A stretch of 64,000 bases of DNA from Akkermansia muciniphila (GCA_945861565.1 CAMAUY010000002.1:1-64000); one strand, 5' to 3'; shown: positions 45,797 through 55,778, counted from the stretch's first letter. Made by a program: numbers and translations. The notes: generated by a model from the letters alone, not told the origin.

Positions 45797-46972
45797 TCAC
45801 CGAGCCCAACTGGGTTGGGAGCAGCTTCCCGAAACCGAAACCCAATCCTTGACGCGGCCTGTGGGAACGTCAAGCAGAGACAGGGTTCGTTGGCCGCCGC
45901 CGAGGCGGCGAACGAACACTAGAGTACGGGAATTGGGACCCCAGGAGGCATCCTCGCCTTCCCTCAATGTCTTCGTCTCACCCCCTGCCGCGGGCACCAC
46001 GCAAATCTGGAAGGTGCCACCACTGGACCGGGTGAAAGATATCCACTTGCCATCGGGCGACCAATCCGGCTCGGTCGCTCCCGTAATGCCGCCAATGTCG
46101 AGCCTTTGCGGTGTGCCTCCCGTGGAGGAAATCGTGTACAACGCCGGGCGACCTTCCATCCGGGATGTGAAACAAATCCGACGTCCGTCCGGTGACCAAC
46201 ACGGGGAGGACTCATCCTCTTTGGAGCGGGTCAATTGGCGTGGACTGGATCCATCCGCGGCAGCTACCCACAGGTCGGGGCTTCCGCTCTTGCTCAATAC
46301 CATGGCCACACGAGAACCGTCGGGCGACGGCGCCGGGCTGATGTTGGACCCCGTGTACCGCGCCACCGTCACTCGTGTGCCGGTCGTTAAATTGTGCGAA
46401 TAGATATCCGGGTTGCTGAGACGATAGCTGGTGTAAAAAAGCGTCAATTGACCGGGGACCCATGCGGGTGCCGCCACGTCCGAGCCATCGCTCGTCATCT
46501 GCACGGAGTTGGCACCATCAAAATCAGCGACAAAAATCTCGCTCCCTTTCGCCGCCTTCTTTTTGAAAGCAATCTTTTTCCGGGATAGCCCGGAACCATG
46601 GTTGAGCGCCTTGGCAATATCGTCCGCGAGCGCGTGCGCCTGCGCACGGAGTCCTCCGCCGGGGTACTGTCGACGGAAAAGGTCCTGGTTGCTGATGCCA
46701 TCGCGCAGGGCTCCCGCGAATTCCGCCGCCGGCACGGACGATGCGATGTATTGGGCCTTGTCGCCCGCAACGACCTCAAACCCAACCACGGTAAGGTCGA
46801 ATTCGAGAATGCGACGAACCTCAGGCGTAAAGCCGGTGAGCGCAATCGGAGTGGCCCGGTTGGCACTCTGCTGGACAACGATGGCTGGCACCTGTTGTTG
46901 AGCGAGAGCCCACGGGGCCAGGACTCCCAGCGCCGCTGCGAAGAGATTGGGTAAACAGGGGAAAAGCCTCAT
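45797..46972 (-). CDS. tolB: Tol-Pal system beta-propeller protein TolB
   Basis: The 391-residue periplasmic protein has a signal peptide (cleavage near APWALAQ), an N-terminal alpha/beta domain (VPAIVVQQSANRATPIALTG) and a six-bladed propeller with repeats such as APSPDGSRVAMVLSKSGSPD, CWSPDGRRICFTSRMEG and DWSPDGKWISFTRSSGG. It links Pal to TolA. The start overlaps the tolA stop by 4 nt. Confidence 0.93.
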   Translation of the reverse strand: MRLFPCLPNLFAAALGVLAPWALAQQQVPAIVVQQSANRATPIALTGFTPEVRRILEFDLTVVGFEVVAGDKAQYIASSVPAAEFAGALRDGISNQDLFRRQYPGGGLRAQAHALADDIAKALNHGSGLSRKKIAFKKKAAKGSEIFVADFDGANSVQMTSDGSDVAAPAWVPGQLTLFYTSYRLSNPDIYSHNLTTGTRVTVARYTGSNISPAPSPDGSRVAMVLSKSGSPDLWVAAADGSSPRQLTRSKEDESSPCWSPDGRRICFTSRMEGRPALYTISSTGGTPQRLDIGGITGATEPDWSPDGKWISFTRSSGGTFQICVVPAAGGETKTLREGEDASWGPNSRTLVFVRRLGGGQRTLSLLDVPTGRVKDWVSVSGSCSQPSWAR

Positions 46973-47928
46973 GCTCCAGTATTGCCGTCAAGTTGAAAGG
47001 TTATCGGAAAAATCCGCTGCGCGTCCCGATTCGTTTTCGGAAATTCCGGCACGCGGCGAACTTCACGGAGAGCCCGCTCCACAGATCGGTCCACGTCTGC
47101 CACGCCCGAAGGGGTTACGACCCGCGCTGTGACAATGGTACCATCCCGAGCAATCGTCACTTCCGATCGTACCAGGACGACATCGCGACCGGTGGTCGAG
47201 GGTTTGAACCGACTCCAGGCCGATTTGTAAAGTTGTCCCAGGACGGAGGCATACCCGGCATAGGACTCACCGCCGACGGGAAGGTCGATATTCACTCCGG
47301 AGGAAAGCCCCTTCGCGAGCCGCCCCATAGCGCGTTCGGTCGCCTTGCGTCGGTTCTCGGTTAGCTCGCGTAGCTGTCGTTCGCTCTCGACCGCGGCTCG
47401 ACGGGATTCCTCCGCCTCCACTCGCTCCTGTTCCTGCTCGCGCTGTTGTTTTTCCTTCCGGGTGCTTTCAACCTCTTTCGCCGATACCTTCACCTTGTTG
47501 GCGGTGACCTGAATTTCTCGCTTCACCGGCTTGGCGGCCACCGGTTGAGGGTCACCAGCGGGATCCTCCGGCAATGGCTTGGAAGGCGTCTTTTTTTTCA
47601 CCGGCGATTCGGCAAGATGAATCTTTTCGACCACCTTCTCCGCCAACTTGGTGGTCGCCGGCGGCTCCACTTTAGTCAGTGCTGAAGCTACCTTCACCGG
47701 AGGCTTTTGAGGAGCGGGACCCCCGTGAGCCGGAGCGGATGCCAAGCTCCCGCCACTCAAATGATTGAACTCCTGCTCAAGTATGTTGGCGGGAATAAAT
47801 TCCAGCGTCTGCACCTCGATTATCTCGGGAGGCTTCTGCGAGAAGGCGGGCGCCAGAAGCAGCACAGCCATGAGGATCCCGTGCAACGAGATCGACGCGG
47901 CAAGGCATCTGGAGGGATTCAATGTCAT
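46969..47928 (-). CDS. tolA: TolA/TonB-like energy-transducing protein
   Basis: The 319-residue protein has one N-terminal membrane helix (ISLHGILMAVLLLAP) and a long Lys/Glu/Arg-rich helix (about 90-200, REQEQERVEAEESRRAA). The C-terminal domain (about 225-319) has VRSEVTIARDGTIVTARVV and SVERALREVRRVPEFP. The architecture and operon position between tolR and tolB identify it as TolA, although the sequence is more TonB-like. It spans the periplasm and connects TolQR to TolB/Pal. Confidence 0.86.
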   Translation of the reverse strand: MTLNPSRCLAASISLHGILMAVLLLAPAFSQKPPEIIEVQTLEFIPANILEQEFNHLSGGSLASAPAHGGPAPQKPPVKVASALTKVEPPATTKLAEKVVEKIHLAESPVKKKTPSKPLPEDPAGDPQPVAAKPVKREIQVTANKVKVSAKEVESTRKEKQQREQEQERVEAEESRRAAVESERQLRELTENRRKATERAMGRLAKGLSSGVNIDLPVGGESYAGYASVLGQLYKSAWSRFKPSTTGRDVVLVRSEVTIARDGTIVTARVVTPSGVADVDRSVERALREVRRVPEFPKTNRDAQRIFPITFQLDGNTGA

Positions 47929-48350
47929 CGGACGCGTCCCGGGGCGGGTTCTGCCGCCAGGGAAATGCTAACCCCCAATCGCTGGCACAGGTTCATGATC
48001 GCAAACGGAAGCTTGTAGGCACCCTCGCCGGAGGCTCGAATGTTGACCACGAGGTCGGGCTTGCTCTGTTTCAATTTCACGAGCGCCGCCTCGAGTTGCT
48101 CGTAGGATCCGAGAATTTTCCCGTTCAAGGCGTAGCGGCCACGTGCATCCACCTCCGCGGTCGCCAAATCGTCTCGCTTGATCTTGCGATTAACCGACCC
48201 GCCCTGCGGCAGGGTGAGAGGAAGAGCCTGCTCAAGAATGGGTGTTGTGATGACAAAGATGATCAAGAGGACGAAGGCCAGGTCGAGCAACGGCGTGATG
48301 TTGATGTCATTCAACGTCACCAGTGAATTCCGTTGGGAGAATCGACGCAT
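47925..48350 (-). CDS. tolR: Biopolymer transporter TolR/ExbD
   Basis: The 141-residue inner-membrane protein starts at the ATG at 48350; the longer open frame upstream is not supported. One membrane helix carries the conserved Asp (NITPLLDLAFVLLIIFVITT). The periplasmic domain shows VDARGRYALNGKIL. It forms the proton channel with TolQ. It overlaps tolA by 4 nt. Confidence 0.93.
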   Translation of the reverse strand: MRRFSQRNSLVTLNDINITPLLDLAFVLLIIFVITTPILEQALPLTLPQGGSVNRKIKRDDLATAEVDARGRYALNGKILGSYEQLEAALVKLKQSKPDLVVNIRASGEGAYKLPFAIMNLCQRLGVSISLAAEPAPGRVR

Positions 48351-48370
48351 GGAGTCCGGGGGTGTGGAGA

Positions 48371-48727
48371 TCAGTGATTGCGAAAGTTTGAGGCGTAAAT
48401 GACCACCGCGAGCACAAGAAGAATCGCCACGAATCCGATGCCGATCACCAGAAGGTTGATATCCCCATCCTTGCCCTTCACCCGGATTCCTACGCCCCGG
48501 TGGAGACTGCCCCGACACTGTTCGCACCGTGAATTTACTCGGGCATTCTTTGCGCCACAACGGTGACAGAACACGTGCAGGTGGGAATGACACCGGACAC
48601 AAAGTTCCGCTCCGGGATCGTTCAGACACTCGCATTTGACGCAGAGCGCACCCCGATGACTTCCGGGCGGAAGTTTTGAGACGTTCGAAGCCGGTGAGGA
48701 TACGGCGGTCTGGATGTCGTCACTCAT
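48371..48727 (-). CDS. Zinc-ribbon membrane protein within the tol-pal operon
   Basis: The 118-residue protein starts at the ATG at 48727, overlapping the tolQ stop by 8 nt. Four CxxC knuckles (CVKCECL, CVRCHSH, CHRCGAK, CEQCRGS) form a double zinc ribbon at about residues 27-75. A Gly/Lys linker and a single C-terminal membrane helix follow (LLVIGIGFVAILLVLAVVIY). The ribbon would face the cytoplasm. No known Tol protein matches. Its place suggests a role in the TolQR complex, but this is inference. Confidence 0.75.
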   Translation of the reverse strand: MSDDIQTAVSSPASNVSKLPPGSHRGALCVKCECLNDPGAELCVRCHSHLHVFCHRCGAKNARVNSRCEQCRGSLHRGVGIRVKGKDGDINLLVIGIGFVAILLVLAVVIYASNFRNH

Positions 48728-49442
48728 CTTGCAAATACTCAGTTTCCATGCGCGATACGAGACTTTGAGCAAAGTTGTCGAGTTCCACCGTCAACACTCG
48801 CAGCGTATGGACCAGCCAATTATAGCCAAACATGGATGGAATGGCCACCAGAAGACCTGCCACGGTGGTAATCAACGCGGCGGCCACACCGGGAGCCATC
48901 GTGCCCAGGTCCGCTCGACCGCCCTGAGCCACACTTTGCGCCACGTAACTGAACGCGTCCATGACCCCCCAAACAGTTCCCAGTAGCCCTAGAAACGGCG
49001 CTCCACTCACCGCAATTGCCAGGATGATCAGACCCGATTCCAATCGCAGCGCCTCGCGGGCGACGGCCCCCTCGAGAACCCGCTTGACATGTTCCATCGA
49101 CTTTAAGGAGAGGTGGGGACGGCGGACCTCCGTACCTCCTTTCAAGCGGGCATTCAATTCGACACAACCATCCTGATAAACGGAAAACAACGGACAACCG
49201 CCCACCTGCAATCGTCGATCAAAAATGCCGAAGACGAGCTTCTGACTGCGAAATTCACTTTCGAAATGCTGATTCAACAGCTTCGCCCGCCGCATCTGGG
49301 TCGCCTTCTGGAGCATCGTCATCCAGGCAAGGATCGAGAAAACGATGAGGATACCAATGATGACCTTGGCCTCCCAGGTGGCTTGGTGCCATACGTATAT
49401 CAGAGAAAATCCGCCGCGCCCCGAAACCGGGGTCGCAGTCAT
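48720..49442 (-). CDS. tolQ: MotA/TolQ/ExbB proton channel family protein
   Basis: The protein is 240 residues from the ATG at 49442; a GTG at 49478 would add 12. Three membrane helices are visible. The conserved TolQ core is LAIAVSGAPFLGLLGTVWGV, MDAFSYVA and IATTxAGL-like segment PGVAAALITTVAGLLVAIPS. It forms the proton-driven motor with TolR. It is the first gene of the tol-pal operon, and its cytoplasmic loop (about 60-140) is of normal size. Confidence 0.93.
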   Translation of the reverse strand: MTATPVSGRGGFSLIYVWHQATWEAKVIIGILIVFSILAWMTMLQKATQMRRAKLLNQHFESEFRSQKLVFGIFDRRLQVGGCPLFSVYQDGCVELNARLKGGTEVRRPHLSLKSMEHVKRVLEGAVAREALRLESGLIILAIAVSGAPFLGLLGTVWGVMDAFSYVAQSVAQGGRADLGTMAPGVAAALITTVAGLLVAIPSMFGYNWLVHTLRVLTVELDNFAQSLVSRMETEYLQDE

Positions 49443-49725
49443 GGCGGCGAGAAATAAACTACAAACGGGTGGATACACGACAACGGGTCACCAGAAAACA
49501 ACCCTGCTTTGAATTAGCGATGCCGAGCCATCGGGTCAAAGGGTTTTCCGCTGCGCAGACGACAGTTGTTCACAGCCAACCCGAACGGACGGGACATCAC
49601 CAGCCGCTCCGCGGACCCAGGAATCACACCCCGCCGGACGCTTCCCGCATCCATTTCCGCATTGCCAATCCATCGCAATCCGCCGCACGTCCTTGCGAAT
49701 GTCATGGCGCATATCCCGGGTCCGG

Positions 49726-51029: not shown

Positions 51030-52322
51030 ATGAGTTCCGCCAGCTTGACTCCGCGAGTCTGTTTCTCGGCACGCTCTTCCCTACGCGCCGTCGCCGTGGC
51101 CGTCGGGTTGCGCCTCGTGTCTCCAACTCGGATGATCGCTGAAGACCGGGTTGAATATCGGTTCGAGGATTACAATGAAGACGGAAACCGGATGCACATC
51201 CAGACCCATTCGGCATACTTCGAAAAGGAGCTCAATTCCCGAATCACAGCCCGAGGAACTTTCGTGTACGATTCCATTTCGGGCGCATCGCCCACGGGTG
51301 GGGCACCTGATTACGGTTCCGATAAGGTTCCCGTAAATCAATTCCTCATCCACGACATCCGACGGGCCGAGAGTCTGGATTTCGCCGTTCGATACGGGGG
51401 CATCCACATGACCACCCCCCAAATCGCCTACAGCAAGGAAAGGGATTATGAATCCGTTGGCCTAGCCCTGAATCACGCCATCGAGTTCAACCAGAAGAAC
51501 ACCACCGTACTGCTCGGGCTCGCCCGAAATTTTGACGAACTTTCGGGACGCTACCAGACAAAGCCAGCGGACAAGGATACCCTCGACGGGATCATTGGAT
51601 TGACCCAACTCCTCAATCCGCAGACCTATCTTACCGCGAATTTAAGTTTCGGCTATGGGGAGGGGTATTTAGATGATCCCTACAAGGGAGTGAATTTCTT
51701 TTTTCCCTATCCGGGCACCCGCCCAGAGGACTGGCCGACCGAGGCCAATCTCGCCGAGAAGAGGCCCTCACACCGGTCGAGACAAGTGCTGTTCCTAGGC
51801 GTCACTCATTTTGTCACGCCGCTCAAGGCAGGCGTCGATGCTAATTACCGCTTTTATCACGACAGTTACGACATATTCGCTCACACCGTGACGCTGCAGT
51901 GGAACCAGAAGCTGGGTGAAAAAGTCACCGTGTCGCCCCTGGTTCGATGGTATCGCCAGGGCGCCGCACGCTTCTATCAACCGCGCTTCATCGGCGAGGC
52001 CGACTACCCGGACGGCACCACGGCCGCCTATCAGGATGGCGAGTTTGTCGACTACGAGGGAGGCCCAGCTTATCCCGAAGATCCAGCGGGCTACACGTTT
52101 ATCGACATTCCTGCCCATCCTAGTTCGTATTCCGCGGACTATCGGCTGAGCGAATTTGAAGCGTATTCAATCGGAATCGGCATGCACTGGCGACTCCACG
52201 ATCACGTCTCCTTGGATGCGGCGTATAAGCGCTACGAAATGCACGGCGTCGGCCACATAACACCCAAAGATGCCTATCCAAAGGCTCATGTGCTGACCGC
52301 CGGATTGGCCCTATGGTTTTAA
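51030..52322 (+). CDS. DUF3570 outer-membrane beta-barrel-like protein with a flavinylation-like motif
   Basis: The 430-residue protein has an N-terminal hydrophobic leader and a repeated beta-strand pattern rich in Tyr/Phe and Asp. It closes with a terminal aromatic (AGLALWF), as outer-membrane barrels do. It matches DUF3570, a family of unknown function. Residues 81-87 (bases 51270-51290) read DSISGAS. This fits the D-x-x-[ST]-G-A-[ST] pattern modified by ApbE, and an ApbE gene follows with a 10-nt overlap. It is the first gene of a four-gene unit with thioredoxin and DUF4266 genes. The exact role is unknown. Confidence 0.82.
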   Translation: MSSASLTPRVCFSARSSLRAVAVAVGLRLVSPTRMIAEDRVEYRFEDYNEDGNRMHIQTHSAYFEKELNSRITARGTFVYDSISGASPTGGAPDYGSDKVPVNQFLIHDIRRAESLDFAVRYGGIHMTTPQIAYSKERDYESVGLALNHAIEFNQKNTTVLLGLARNFDELSGRYQTKPADKDTLDGIIGLTQLLNPQTYLTANLSFGYGEGYLDDPYKGVNFFFPYPGTRPEDWPTEANLAEKRPSHRSRQVLFLGVTHFVTPLKAGVDANYRFYHDSYDIFAHTVTLQWNQKLGEKVTVSPLVRWYRQGAARFYQPRFIGEADYPDGTTAAYQDGEFVDYEGGPAYPEDPAGYTFIDIPAHPSSYSADYRLSEFEAYSIGIGMHWRLHDHVSLDAAYKRYEMHGVGHITPKDAYPKAHVLTAGLALWF

Positions 52323-53350
52323 CGCCTCCCATCCCGGCAGCGTCCCCGGATGCGGTCAACCTGCATCCGCCCGACCTCCGCCCGGTGCACCAGCGAATTG
52401 TGGCCTCGGCGCACGAAGAGGCTCGCGAGGGCGGACACAGCCTGACGTTCCAGGCGATGGGCACGAACTGCCGCGCTTGCTTCTCCGCTCCCCGGGACAT
52501 CGCCCGCCAGTACCGCGACGCCCTGCTTCGGTGGGTCGCGTCGTTTGAGGCCCGCTACTCCCGGTTTCGAGAGGACAGCCTGATCTCACAAATCAATCGG
52601 GAGGCCGGCAGACGCTGGGTAACTCTCGACCCGGAGACGGATCGGTTGATGGCGCTTTGCCACGAACTCGTTTTTCTTACAAAGGGCATTCTGGATCCAA
52701 CTTCCCTGCCGCTGATCGGGCTCTGGAACTGGAAGAATTCACCCCCAGCGGTTCCGACGCCGGAACAGATTGCCACCGCCCGGGAGCAGGTCGGTTGGCG
52801 GAAGTTGCAGCGCCGTCCCGGGGCGATCTTTCTGCCCTCTTCCGGGATGTCGCTCGACCTCGGAGGTGTGGGCAAGGAATACGCCGTCGACCAAGCCGTG
52901 CTGCTCGCCGGGTCCATGGGTGTGACCGGCGTACTGGTGGATTTTGGAGCCGACGTCCGCGTTGCCGGCCTGCCGCCGGACGGCCGACCGTCTTGGTCTA
53001 TTGGGCTCGAAGACCCTCGCAAGCCTGGCTCCACCTGGAAGGGTCTAACGCTTCGGGACGGAGCCGTCGCCACATCCGGTGACTATTTTCGGAAATTTGA
53101 AGTCAACGGCCGGCGCTACGGTCATATTATCGATCCGCGCACAGGCGAACCCGTCCACAATACCTGCTTGGCGGTCAGCATCATTGCCCCAAGCTGCACG
53201 CAGGCGGGCATGCTTTCGACAGCGGCGTTTGTGTTGGGCGCCGATGCCGGTCTAAAACTGATTGAAGCCCAACCCGCCACCGCCGGAGCCATTGTCACTG
53301 AATCCGGTATCCATCTCAGCCGTCGATTCCATGAATATGCACTCGCTTAA
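52313..53350 (+). CDS. apbE: FAD:protein FMN transferase (ApbE family)
   Basis: The 345-residue enzyme would attach FMN covalently to a Thr/Ser of a target protein. Motifs are FQAMGTNC, the signature SLDLGGVGKEYAVDQA, DFGADVRVAG, VATSGDYFRKF and YGHIIDPRTGEPVHN, which bind FAD and Mg2+. A signal peptide or lipobox normally precedes the domain, but none is seen in the first 45 residues. Either export uses an unrecognised signal, or the protein acts in the cytoplasm. It overlaps the DUF3570 gene by 10 nt and the thioredoxin gene by 20 nt. Confidence 0.9.
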   Translation: MVLTPPIPAASPDAVNLHPPDLRPVHQRIVASAHEEAREGGHSLTFQAMGTNCRACFSAPRDIARQYRDALLRWVASFEARYSRFREDSLISQINREAGRRWVTLDPETDRLMALCHELVFLTKGILDPTSLPLIGLWNWKNSPPAVPTPEQIATAREQVGWRKLQRRPGAIFLPSSGMSLDLGGVGKEYAVDQAVLLAGSMGVTGVLVDFGADVRVAGLPPDGRPSWSIGLEDPRKPGSTWKGLTLRDGAVATSGDYFRKFEVNGRRYGHIIDPRTGEPVHNTCLAVSIIAPSCTQAGMLSTAAFVLGADAGLKLIEAQPATAGAIVTESGIHLSRRFHEYALA

Positions 53351-53864
53351 ATTCAACCGCCGGGAGTGGCTGACCGCCACGGCCAGCGTCCTCGCAGCCA
53401 CCGCAACCCCAGAATTTGTCCGGGCAGCCTCCGTCGGCCCCAAGGCCGGTGACACGCTTCCTGACCTCGCCAGTTTTGGATTGGAAGGAACTCTGCCCGA
53501 TCTGAAGGGCAAGACCGTCTTGATCGATTTTTGGGCATCCTGGTGCGCTCCCTGCAAGCGGTCGTTTCCGTCGCTGGCCCAGCTGCATCAAAAATTCGCA
53601 GCGAGAGGATTCCTCGTTCTCGCCGTCAGTGTGGATGAGGAAAAGGAGGACATGGACAAGTTCCTGAAAAAAAATCCCGTTCCGTTTCCGGTGGTGCGGG
53701 ATCCCAAAAGCCAGTTGGCCGAAAAGCTCGGAATCGATGTAATGCCCACCTCAATTTTGGTGGGCAAGGACGGCAAAATCCGGATAGTGCATCGTGGATT
53801 CGAGGGCGAGTCGACCCGGAAACAATACCAGGCCGATATTGAGGCCGCGCTTGATTCAAAGTGA
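53331..53864 (+). CDS. Tat-exported TlpA/thioredoxin-like protein
   Basis: The 177-residue protein starts at the ATG at 53331 (or 53337). It has a twin-arginine type signal (FNRREWLTATASVLAATATP) and a thioredoxin fold with the active-site motif WCAPCKRSFPSL. The cis-Pro loop is VMPTSILVGKDG. The fold is of the AhpC/TSA-Redoxin type (DTLPDLASFGLEG opening). It likely handles disulfide or thiol redox in the periplasm. It overlaps apbE by 20 nt and is 37 bp before the DUF4266 gene. Confidence 0.9.
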   Translation: MNMHSLKFNRREWLTATASVLAATATPEFVRAASVGPKAGDTLPDLASFGLEGTLPDLKGKTVLIDFWASWCAPCKRSFPSLAQLHQKFAARGFLVLAVSVDEEKEDMDKFLKKNPVPFPVVRDPKSQLAEKLGIDVMPTSILVGKDGKIRIVHRGFEGESTRKQYQADIEAALDSK

Positions 53865-53901
53865 TCCAGTGTCGAGTTCCTCCGATCGACGCCCTTCTCC
53901 C

Positions 53902-54120
53902 ATGAAAAATCTGATCCCTCTGCTGATTCTAGCCGTGTGCGCCACCTGGGCTGCAGGCTGCAAGAATGTGAAACCGTACCAGCGGAAAACGTTGTCGGAC
54001 CGAACGATGCGCGGGGACCGGGACCCGATGGGGGTCGCGTTATCGGAACACATGTACTTCTCGCGCGAAGCCGCCGCCGGCGGGCGAGGCGTCGGCGGCG
54101 GCGGCTGTGGCTGCAACTAG
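53902..54120 (+). CDS. DUF4266 small lipoprotein with Gly/Cys tail
   Basis: The 72-residue lipoprotein starts at the ATG at 53902 (MKNLIPLLILAVCATWAAGC, Cys 20 lipidated). The mature part reads PYQRKTLSDRTM, DPMGVALSEHMYFSREAAA, and ends in GGRGVGGGGCGCN, a glycine-rich CxC tail. This layout is the DUF4266 family, short lipoproteins found with DUF3570, ApbE and thioredoxin-like genes. The function is unknown; a metal-binding or redox tail is possible. Confidence 0.85.
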   Translation: MKNLIPLLILAVCATWAAGCKNVKPYQRKTLSDRTMRGDRDPMGVALSEHMYFSREAAAGGRGVGGGGCGCN

Positions 54121-54293: not shown

Positions 54294-55778
54294 GTGAGAC
54301 GCATCTTTCAAGTTCCATCGCTGCTGGTCGCCGTGCTCCTTCAGCTTGCACCCCTCAGCCGGACTCTGCCCGTGTCGGTTTTGCCCGTTGCATCGCCCAT
54401 CGCCGTCGTCTGGCAGATTCTTCTCCGAGCGGCCGCGGTGGCCGGAAGTTTTCACGCCGTGTCCGGTGCGACAACCCTGGTAAGCCCGGAATCCGCCAGC
54501 GGGAAAGTGGGGGTACCCTTCAACTACAAGGCAGAAATCTTCAGCGACCAATACCTTTCACCTAAATCGTATTCCGCCACCGGCATTACCCCCACTCCGA
54601 AGGACATTGCCACGCTTGGATTCGTGATCGACAATCTTTCCGGCCAAATCAGCGGGACGCCGAACAAGGCCGGAACCCACAAGATTAAGCTCACCGGTTG
54701 GCATAAGTCGAATCTCTCGGGCGATAGTGCATCGTATAATATCACGTTCGTCATTAGTCCAGGCGGTACTGCTCCGACGATTTCCCTGCAGCCCCTCGCC
54801 CAAACCGCAACCGTCGGTGACACGGTCACACTTCGTGTTGCCGCCACCGGAGACTCGCCATTTACCTACCGATGGATCCGCAACGGAATTGAACTTTCTG
54901 GCAAAACGAATTCGACCCTCACTTTCAGTCCCGTCGCGCTAACGGATGACGCCGACTACTCCGTTCGCGTCACAAATCCCTCCGGCAACACTCCCAGTGC
55001 AACGGTCCATCTGACCGTCGTCGCGCCCCCAGTTTCCCCCGTGATCACGCTCCAGCCGTTGGGCGTCAGCGCCAATTCGGGCGCCAACGTTGAATTCCGG
55101 TCGCAGGCCAGCGGGGCTCCAGCCCCAACCTATCAGTGGTTCAAAGGATCGACGCTTCTCGCCGGTAAAGTAAGTTCCACTCTCTTCCTGCCCAATGTCA
55201 CCACCAATGATGAGGGTGCCTACTCCGTTCACGTCAGCAATGCCGGCGGCACGGTCCCCAGCAATCCTGCACTCCTGACGGTCTTTGTCGCCCCCAGCGT
55301 CACCCTGCACCCGTCGGATCAGACAGTGCCGGCGGGGACATCGGTCACGTTCAACGTTGCCGCCACGGGCAAACCCGCCCCGTCCTTCCAGTGGTACCAT
55401 GGAAACACTCTCCTGATCGATTCCACCAATGCCATCTTGGAAGTGACCGCTTCCGACTCAACAATGGGATCGTACCACGCCGTTGCGAGCAATGTCGCCG
55501 GCACTGCCCTCAGCACTTCCGCCTCTCTGACGTTGGAGCCAACGGTCGTGCTGACCGTTCCACCACTTCATCTGATTTCGGTGGGCGAGACCGTTTCCGT
55601 GCTGGAGTTCACAGCCTCGCCCGGAGGCGCGTATGTGATCGAATATCTGGATACGCTCCACGGCACCCGCTGGGCACCCGGTCCAACGCTGTCGAACAGC
55701 ACCGGGTCCGTCTTCGTCGAAGTGCCCAGTGGTGAAGTCGGAGCTCGTTTTTGGAGGGTCCGATTGGGCACGAATTAA
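54294..55778 (+). CDS. Exported protein with three immunoglobulin-like domains
   Basis: The 494-residue protein starts at a GTG (54294), with a hydrophobic leader (SLLVAVLLQLAPLSRTLP). A putative Ig-like/He_PIG domain (about 75-155, LSGQISGTPNKAGTHKI) precedes three Ig-like domains at about 160-243, 248-330 and 332-417. These carry repeat patterns such as YRWIRNGIELSGKTNSTL, YQWFKGSTLLAGKVSSTL and FQWYHGNTLLIDSTNAIL. A beta-rich C-terminal part ends ARFWRVRLGTN. Such proteins are common on verrucomicrobial surfaces, probably for adhesion or binding. The preceding 173 bp hold no gene. Confidence 0.85.
   Translation: MRRIFQVPSLLVAVLLQLAPLSRTLPVSVLPVASPIAVVWQILLRAAAVAGSFHAVSGATTLVSPESASGKVGVPFNYKAEIFSDQYLSPKSYSATGITPTPKDIATLGFVIDNLSGQISGTPNKAGTHKIKLTGWHKSNLSGDSASYNITFVISPGGTAPTISLQPLAQTATVGDTVTLRVAATGDSPFTYRWIRNGIELSGKTNSTLTFSPVALTDDADYSVRVTNPSGNTPSATVHLTVVAPPVSPVITLQPLGVSANSGANVEFRSQASGAPAPTYQWFKGSTLLAGKVSSTLFLPNVTTNDEGAYSVHVSNAGGTVPSNPALLTVFVAPSVTLHPSDQTVPAGTSVTFNVAATGKPAPSFQWYHGNTLLIDSTNAILEVTASDSTMGSYHAVASNVAGTALSTSASLTLEPTVVLTVPPLHLISVGETVSVLEFTASPGGAYVIEYLDTLHGTRWAPGPTLSNSTGSVFVEVPSGEVGARFWRVRLGTN

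Follow-up and report, generated by a model that had tools for sequence, protein, structure and literature searches.

A gene set encoding a DUF3570 protein, an ApbE-family flavin mononucleotide (FMN) transferase, a thioredoxin, and a DUF4266 lipoprotein was analyzed computationally at positions 51030 to 54120 of the window, the whole 64,000-nucleotide stretch examined here (GCA_945861565.1, CAMAUY010000002.1:1-64000, listed as Akkermansia muciniphila). The genome belongs to the Verrucomicrobiota and is 5.9 Mb in size, and the nearest relatives that carry a name are Verrucomicrobia assemblies, including Pedosphaera-type ones. The four genes and a fifth gene downstream, which encodes an immunoglobulin (Ig)-repeat protein, are as follows:

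51030-52322, plus strand: DUF3570 protein, 430 amino acids (Pfam PF12094, 226 bits; cut-off, 25).
52313-53350, plus strand: ApbE-family FMN transferase without a signal peptide, 345 amino acids (PF02424, 243.5 bits; cut-off, 25.6).
53331-53864, plus strand: TlpA/ResA-like thioredoxin with CAPC at residues 72 to 75 (from 53544) and a twin-arginine translocation (Tat)-type signal, NRREWL (Redoxin PF08534, 86 bits; cut-off, 26.6).
53902-54120, plus strand: DUF4266 lipoprotein, 72 amino acids, lipobox AAGC, C terminus GGGGCGCN (PF14086, 72 bits; cut-off, 27).
54294-55778, plus strand: Ig-repeat protein with a GTG start (Ig domains, Pfam).

The DUF3570 and ApbE genes overlap by 10 nucleotides (nt), the ApbE and thioredoxin genes overlap by 20 nt, and a gap of 37 bp separates the thioredoxin and DUF4266 genes. 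An earlier sequence-only reading of this DNA had proposed four same-strand genes with this spacing, and the gene coordinates and Pfam scores bear it out. The DUF4266 start was set at 53902 according to the lipobox peptide, the mechanical open reading frame start at 53794 being too early. The lipoprotein carries a C-terminal CXC, and the ending GGxGCGC[N/Y/Q/F] is found in nearly all loci. The thioredoxin has the fold, the CxxC motif, and the export signal (RREWL) of an exported TlpA/ResA-like protein; it reached no equivalog cut-off in NCBIfam, which has no model for the DUF3570 barrel, DUF4266, or the N terminus of the Ig-repeat protein. No DsbD gene is present in the cluster, and the only DsbD gene of the genome is located on another contig (C1).

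The four-gene set is real and functionally linked, and its core idea has already been published. Meheust et al. (2021, eLife, PMC8238504) described clusters of DUF3570, ApbE, thioredoxin-like, and DUF4266 genes, 227 of which are linked to DsbD and 316 of which are DsbD free, with CXC in DUF4266, so the system is not uncharacterized as the sequence-only reading had supposed. In the same study, the cognate ApbE of the Chlorobium luteolum DUF3570 protein flavinylated it at two [S/T]GA[S/T] sites; this result, together with the tracking of the motif with ApbE described below, upholds the view that DUF3570 is an ApbE substrate family. The C. luteolum protein was largely insoluble in Escherichia coli and was purified denatured (PMC8238504), and since it was flavinylated while largely insoluble, the reaction probably does not require a folded barrel. 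Iron assimilation was suggested as a role for DUF3570 systems (PMC8238504), and the literature searched mentions DUF3570 or DUF4266 nowhere else. The window shares with the DsbD-type flavinylation system of that study the four families, the CXC of DUF4266, the ApbE target motif, and the proposed electron supply by thioredoxin and DsbD. However, the C. luteolum DUF3570 has two flavinylation sites, whereas the window barrel has one motif; flavinylation is treated there as extracytosolic, whereas the window ApbE lacks an export signal and carries a swap in its metal site; the published text includes neither a barrel topology nor an Ig-protein partner; and the window lacks an adjacent DsbD.

The target motif was found in the DUF3570 protein where it had been reported earlier, at residues 81 to 87:

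51270-51290, plus strand: ApbE target motif DSISGAS, at the end of strand 3 and in outer loop 2 of the structure model.
51288-51290, plus strand: codon of Ser87, the presumed FMN acceptor.

Conservation of the motif was determined in 39 barrels of Verrucomicrobiota and neighboring groups, which were gathered by Pfam family and not by motif; a contig scan with the motif as the search pattern was excluded from these counts. The acceptor position is Ser or Thr in 39 of 39 relatives, and Gly85 and the following Pro (P88) are likewise present in all 39. Position 1 is Asp in 30 and Asn in 9, and position 4 is Ser or Thr in 30, Ala in 8, and Val in 1. As judged from sequence, DSISGAS exceeds chance. 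Invariance of the motif thus holds for the acceptor and the Gly but not for positions 1 and 4, and some clear members would be lost under a strict D-x-x-[ST]-G-A-[ST] definition. In NqrC, an Asp-to-Ala change in the equivalent motif left activity intact (PMC4767422). In Planctomycete relatives, the loop with the motif holds two candidate sites (D-x-V-S-S-A-S and x-Q-S-G-A-S), and these proteins are probably the two-site form of the literature. Lentisphaerae-type barrels (L095, L097, L098, L156-L158, and L175) have Asn for the motif Asp and a Pro/Ser/Thr-rich insert of 100 to 200 residues in outer loop 2, often with a second AGAT.

The AlphaFold model of the DUF3570 protein (AF2, 77 sequences; mean predicted local distance difference test [pLDDT] score, 92.4; predicted template modeling score, 0.84) contains 16 long strands. 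In the model, these form a closed barrel in which inner turns of 2 to 4 residues alternate with long outer connections, and the C terminus is aromatic (LALWF), as in outer-membrane beta-barrels. The protein has a weak N-terminal signal, with a helix at residues 14 to 28 of the model. In VIA-align, outer-membrane barrels were collinear with residues 35 to 430 (Z scores of 16 to 22); the fold search matches were outer-membrane barrels generally and indicated no specific function, and the match to 6r2q_B of the Mtr complex is a general barrel match only. In outer-membrane barrels, both termini lie inside and the periplasmic turns are short. Since the termini lie inside, the motif is predicted to lie where strand 3 ends on the outer side and outer loop 2 begins, which places it at the outer mouth of the modeled barrel. 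A model of the Planctomycete form (pLDDT, 82) has the same strand order, with both motifs in that loop. Of the two locations suggested earlier, surface or periplasm, the periplasmic one is not supported by the model; the barrel itself stands and is predicted to lie in the outer membrane. The outer loops of such barrels are usually variable. Of 32 invariant residues, the outer loops and the top thirds of the strands together account for 24, the lower thirds for 2, and the inner turns for none. The top thirds of the strands are more conserved than the bottom thirds (p, 0.003; p, 0.03 without strands 3 and 4). This concentration of invariant residues at the outer end points to a functional site around a flavin at the outer mouth. 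DUF3570 is present in tandem or double copies in L036, L037, L054, and L177; in L036 and L037, a thioredoxin and a DUF4266 gene are kept for each copy, with no ApbE gene nearby.

The ApbE of the cluster differs from canonical ApbEs at two active-site positions:

53207-53209, plus strand: Gly299 (GGC), in place of the metal-ligand Asp (D285 in Vibrio cholerae, D301 in Listeria FmnB, and D280 in E. coli).
52877-52879, plus strand: Glu189 (GAA), after the conserved Lys of the metal loop (DLGGVGKEYAVD), as located by alignment.

ApbE types were assigned from the aligned column, and the canonical set comprised 20 Planctomycete-type ApbEs, 7 paralogues, and 2 reference structures. The metal-ligand Asp column contains Gly in 99 of 99 readable cluster ApbEs and Asp in 29 of 29 canonical ones, and the position after the metal-loop Lys is Glu throughout the cluster clade and Gly in all 29 canonical ApbEs. 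As pairs, 103 Glu/Gly (cluster clade) and 29 Gly/Asp (canonical) were counted, with no mixed pair among the resolved rows, and a quick tree separated the altered and canonical rows by one branch with a support of 99. The active-site Ser255 and His271 are kept in 100 of 100 members of the clade, so the window ApbE has the catalytic Ser and His and lacks the metal-ligand and triad Asp (V. cholerae D285). It shares with the canonical periplasmic ApbE, FmnB, and Ftp proteins (PF02424) the fold family, the Ser of SGDY, the His of H-x-x-D-P-x-T-G, and the metal-loop Lys, whereas it has neither a signal nor a lipobox, Gly instead of the Asp, and Glu instead of the Gly after the Lys. In FmnB, the Asp binds both Mg ions, and its substitution costs most or all activity (PMC8906456). 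In E. coli ApbE, the second Mg is bound by E169, which immediately precedes the position of the new Glu (PMC4767422). The paired change suggests that an active-site carboxylate was relocated, the alternative being that activity was lost.

The ApbE gene starts with MVL, overlapping the barrel stop codon, and in many loci MVL or a near variant lies within the last codons of the barrel gene (ATGGTTTTAA) with no hydrophobic stretch after it. The window ApbE thus has neither the signal peptide nor the lipobox of periplasmic-type ApbEs. Signals were scored as a charge-free 12-residue stretch with a mean hydropathy of at least 1.8 upstream of the domain. Such stretches were detected in 4 of 103 cluster-clade ApbEs compared with 15 of 22 canonical ApbEs in the same analysis; the remaining canonical ApbEs include L191, L200, and L201, in which a signal lies further upstream, before an N-terminal extension or a thioredoxin domain. 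In the same loci, the partner genes encode such stretches in 107 of 108 DUF4266 proteins, 87 of 92 thioredoxins, and 81 of 117 barrels. The cytosolic ApbE of Klebsiella pneumoniae also has no signal peptide, but it serves a cytosolic fumarate reductase (PMC12052999), whereas the only evident substrate of the window ApbE is an outer-membrane barrel.

The twin-arginine signal of the window thioredoxin and the 20-nt overlap of its gene with the ApbE gene raise the idea that the cluster ApbE reaches the periplasm through Tat together with the thioredoxin, in which case flavinylation would be periplasmic. Secreted thioredoxin-ApbE fusions in Planctomycetes (L185, L191, and L201) and ApbE-thioredoxin pairs apart from the barrel are in keeping with this idea, but most partner thioredoxins elsewhere, including that of a Vibrio isolate, carry Sec-type signals, and Sec cannot carry a folded partner. 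This route is accordingly quite unlikely for the window ApbE, and as a general rule Tat hitch-hiking was discarded, the partner thioredoxins being mostly of the Sec type. The fusions, found beside DUF3570 and DUF4266 genes in the Planctomycetota sample, are located at 5873-7309 of L185, 3868-5556 of L191, and 4386-5870 of L201; in L200, a comparable N-terminal extension lacks CxxC and gives no Pfam thioredoxin match.

Of 289 evenly sampled Verrucomicrobiota genomes, 30 gave a DUF3570 match. In three of them (G059, G126, and G217), the barrel is of the Planctomycete type and is accompanied by a canonical ApbE (L180-L182), and G181 gave only a partial DUF3570 match (27.8 bits). The altered ApbE, recognized by matches with E values of <1e-70 (next match, 4e-46), was present in all 26 genomes with a cluster-type DUF3570 and in none of the 263 others (Fisher test, 1e-37, with genomes treated as independent and no kinship correction). 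The 26 genomes span several families, and in G284 the barrel and ApbE genes are on different contigs. The motif tracks with ApbE. Outside the phylum, a Vibrio isolate, found with the barrel of a relative as the query, has the order thioredoxin-DUF4266-DUF3570-ApbE-DsbD with the same Glu/Gly pair and a signal-less ApbE, and the same pair occurs in L183 of the Planctomycetota sample, which indicates that the altered system is not a peculiarity of metagenome assembly. No match was found among plasmids with the window barrel or with DUF4266 as the query or among viral contigs.

Neighborhoods of 3.3 kb on each side were counted in three sets of DUF3570 cases (51, 30, and 17). DUF4266 was beside DUF3570 in 51 of 51, 29 of 30, and 17 of 17 cases, and ApbE was beside it in 40, 26, and 16 cases in the same sets. 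Where no ApbE gene lies at the barrel, an ApbE of the altered clade, again signal-less, is encoded elsewhere with its own thioredoxin (L223, L226, and L227). The barrel and DUF4266 thus look like a working pair, with ApbE and thioredoxin as a second unit.

These distributions bear on an unlikely alternative, namely, that a canonical lipoprotein ApbE modifies the exported barrel and that the paralogue in the cluster is dead or regulatory, for instance a flavin adenine dinucleotide-binding helper. The cluster ApbE is without the metal-ligand Asp, which is essential or nearly so in FmnB, and the window genome encodes two further ApbEs, of which the one on contig C10 (L217) is a lipoprotein with the Asp. 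However, the altered ApbE is the sole ApbE in six barrel genomes (G060, G140, G269, G139, G277, and G330), its Ser and His are invariant, its Gly/Glu pair is fixed in 103 of 103 members, and its co-occurrence with the barrel is perfect.

The Ig-repeat protein is the commonest further neighbor, encoded directly downstream of DUF4266 in 79 loci. Its N-terminal module is of membrane type, contains two hydrophobic segments along with conserved Q, P, and R residues, and ends in [HDN]-x-[VLM]-[SA]-G-A-[TS], which in the window reads as follows:

54453-54473, plus strand: HAVSGAT, Ig-repeat protein residues 54 to 60.

A profile of the module matched 15 of the 289 genomes, all within the 26, and none elsewhere at a comparable score, two partial matches with E values of about 2e-4 being taken as background. 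Five further copies away from the cluster, found without selection for the motif, all contain it. The protein may be a second ApbE substrate or a partner, as judged from its motif; it is only a candidate substrate because S-G-A|T also fits signal peptidase. Position 4 (Ser or Ala) of the barrel and Ig motifs matched as S-S or A-A in 39 of 60 pairs, but covariation among independent pairs was not significant, and the idea was dropped. Two to three tandem Ig-repeat genes with the GA[ST] module follow one barrel cluster at 8351-12001 of L205 and 10845-14727 of L076.

The motif [DHN]xx[STA]GA[ST] shared by the barrel and the Ig protein, their occurrence only with the altered ApbE, and the altered metal site of that ApbE would also suit a dedicated system for surface export or assembly: both proteins would be clients, flagged by the motif for some other ApbE-type modification, and the redox components would serve the cysteines of DUF4266. 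The flavinylation of the C. luteolum DUF3570 by its cognate ApbE (PMC8238504), the absence of any shared export-machinery gene beyond the set, and the readability of the Ig motif as a signal-peptidase site make such a system highly improbable.

The reading favored here, to which a probability of about 0.5 is given, is that the DUF3570 systems published in 2021 have a variant here, built on a flavinylated outer-membrane barrel, with FMN attachment in the cytosol, export, and a flavin at the surface. Cytosolic flavinylation is suggested by the missing signal, the six genomes without another ApbE, and the flavinylation of a largely insoluble DUF3570. The cluster ApbE would stay in the cytosol and attach FMN to Ser87 while the barrel precursor is still unfolded. 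The flavinylated chain would then be exported by Sec and inserted and folded by the beta-barrel assembly machinery (BAM), which would place FMN at the outer mouth of the modeled barrel. Electrons, probably from DsbD in trans, may reach the flavin by way of the exported thioredoxin and the DUF4266 lipoprotein with its CXC, and the flavin would hand them to an acceptor outside; the Ig-repeat protein may be a dedicated partner and perhaps a second substrate. Like MtrB-type porin conduits, the system would bring electrons to the surface by means of an outer-membrane barrel; however, MtrB holds a haem protein in its pore, whereas FMN at the outer mouth and no cytochrome are proposed here. More tentatively, an ApbE subfamily with a relocated carboxylate (Asp299 to Gly and Gly189 to Glu) may flavinylate secretory precursors in the cytosol, with FMN crossing Sec and BAM to both the surface DUF3570 barrel and the Ig-repeat protein.

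Several points weigh against the favored reading. The cluster ApbE has lost the Mg-ligand Asp, and Ala at this position greatly reduces or abolishes FmnB activity (PMC8906456); a compensating role of Glu189 is a guess. Periplasmic modification by the lipoprotein paralogue L217 of the window genome is possible. In addition, hydrophobicity rather than a trained predictor was used to judge the signal absent, the tree was built quickly, and the genomes are not independent.

Other genes were observed around these clusters. A histidine-kinase-type gene, possibly a regulator, recurs by the cluster in 26 loci (for example, at 1324-2289 of L170, minus strand). A secreted, possibly barrel-type protein is encoded in six loci (13489-14787 of L083 and 2097-3437 of L238, for example), and a similar protein also adjoins an Ig-module gene away from the cluster. 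In the window, TonB-like, ExbD, and MotA/ExbB genes and a zinc-ribbon protein gene at 46969-49478 (minus strand) are divergent from the cluster, with no evidence of a link to it.

Three features add to the published system and have no earlier report in the literature searched: the altered, signal-less ApbE with its strict co-occurrence, the site at the outer mouth, and the fifth partner. If the favored reading is true, the flavinylation of envelope proteins need not happen outside the cytosol, a bulky modified side chain crosses Sec and is folded by BAM, and the cells have a barrel whose outer mouth bears a flavin rather than haem. The reading would also explain how organisms without a secreted ApbE make DUF3570 systems, name a second substrate family, and provide a direct handle on the role of the DUF3570/DUF4266 systems. 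The Gly/Glu swap is a clean genome marker for these systems and tests what the ApbE metal site needs.

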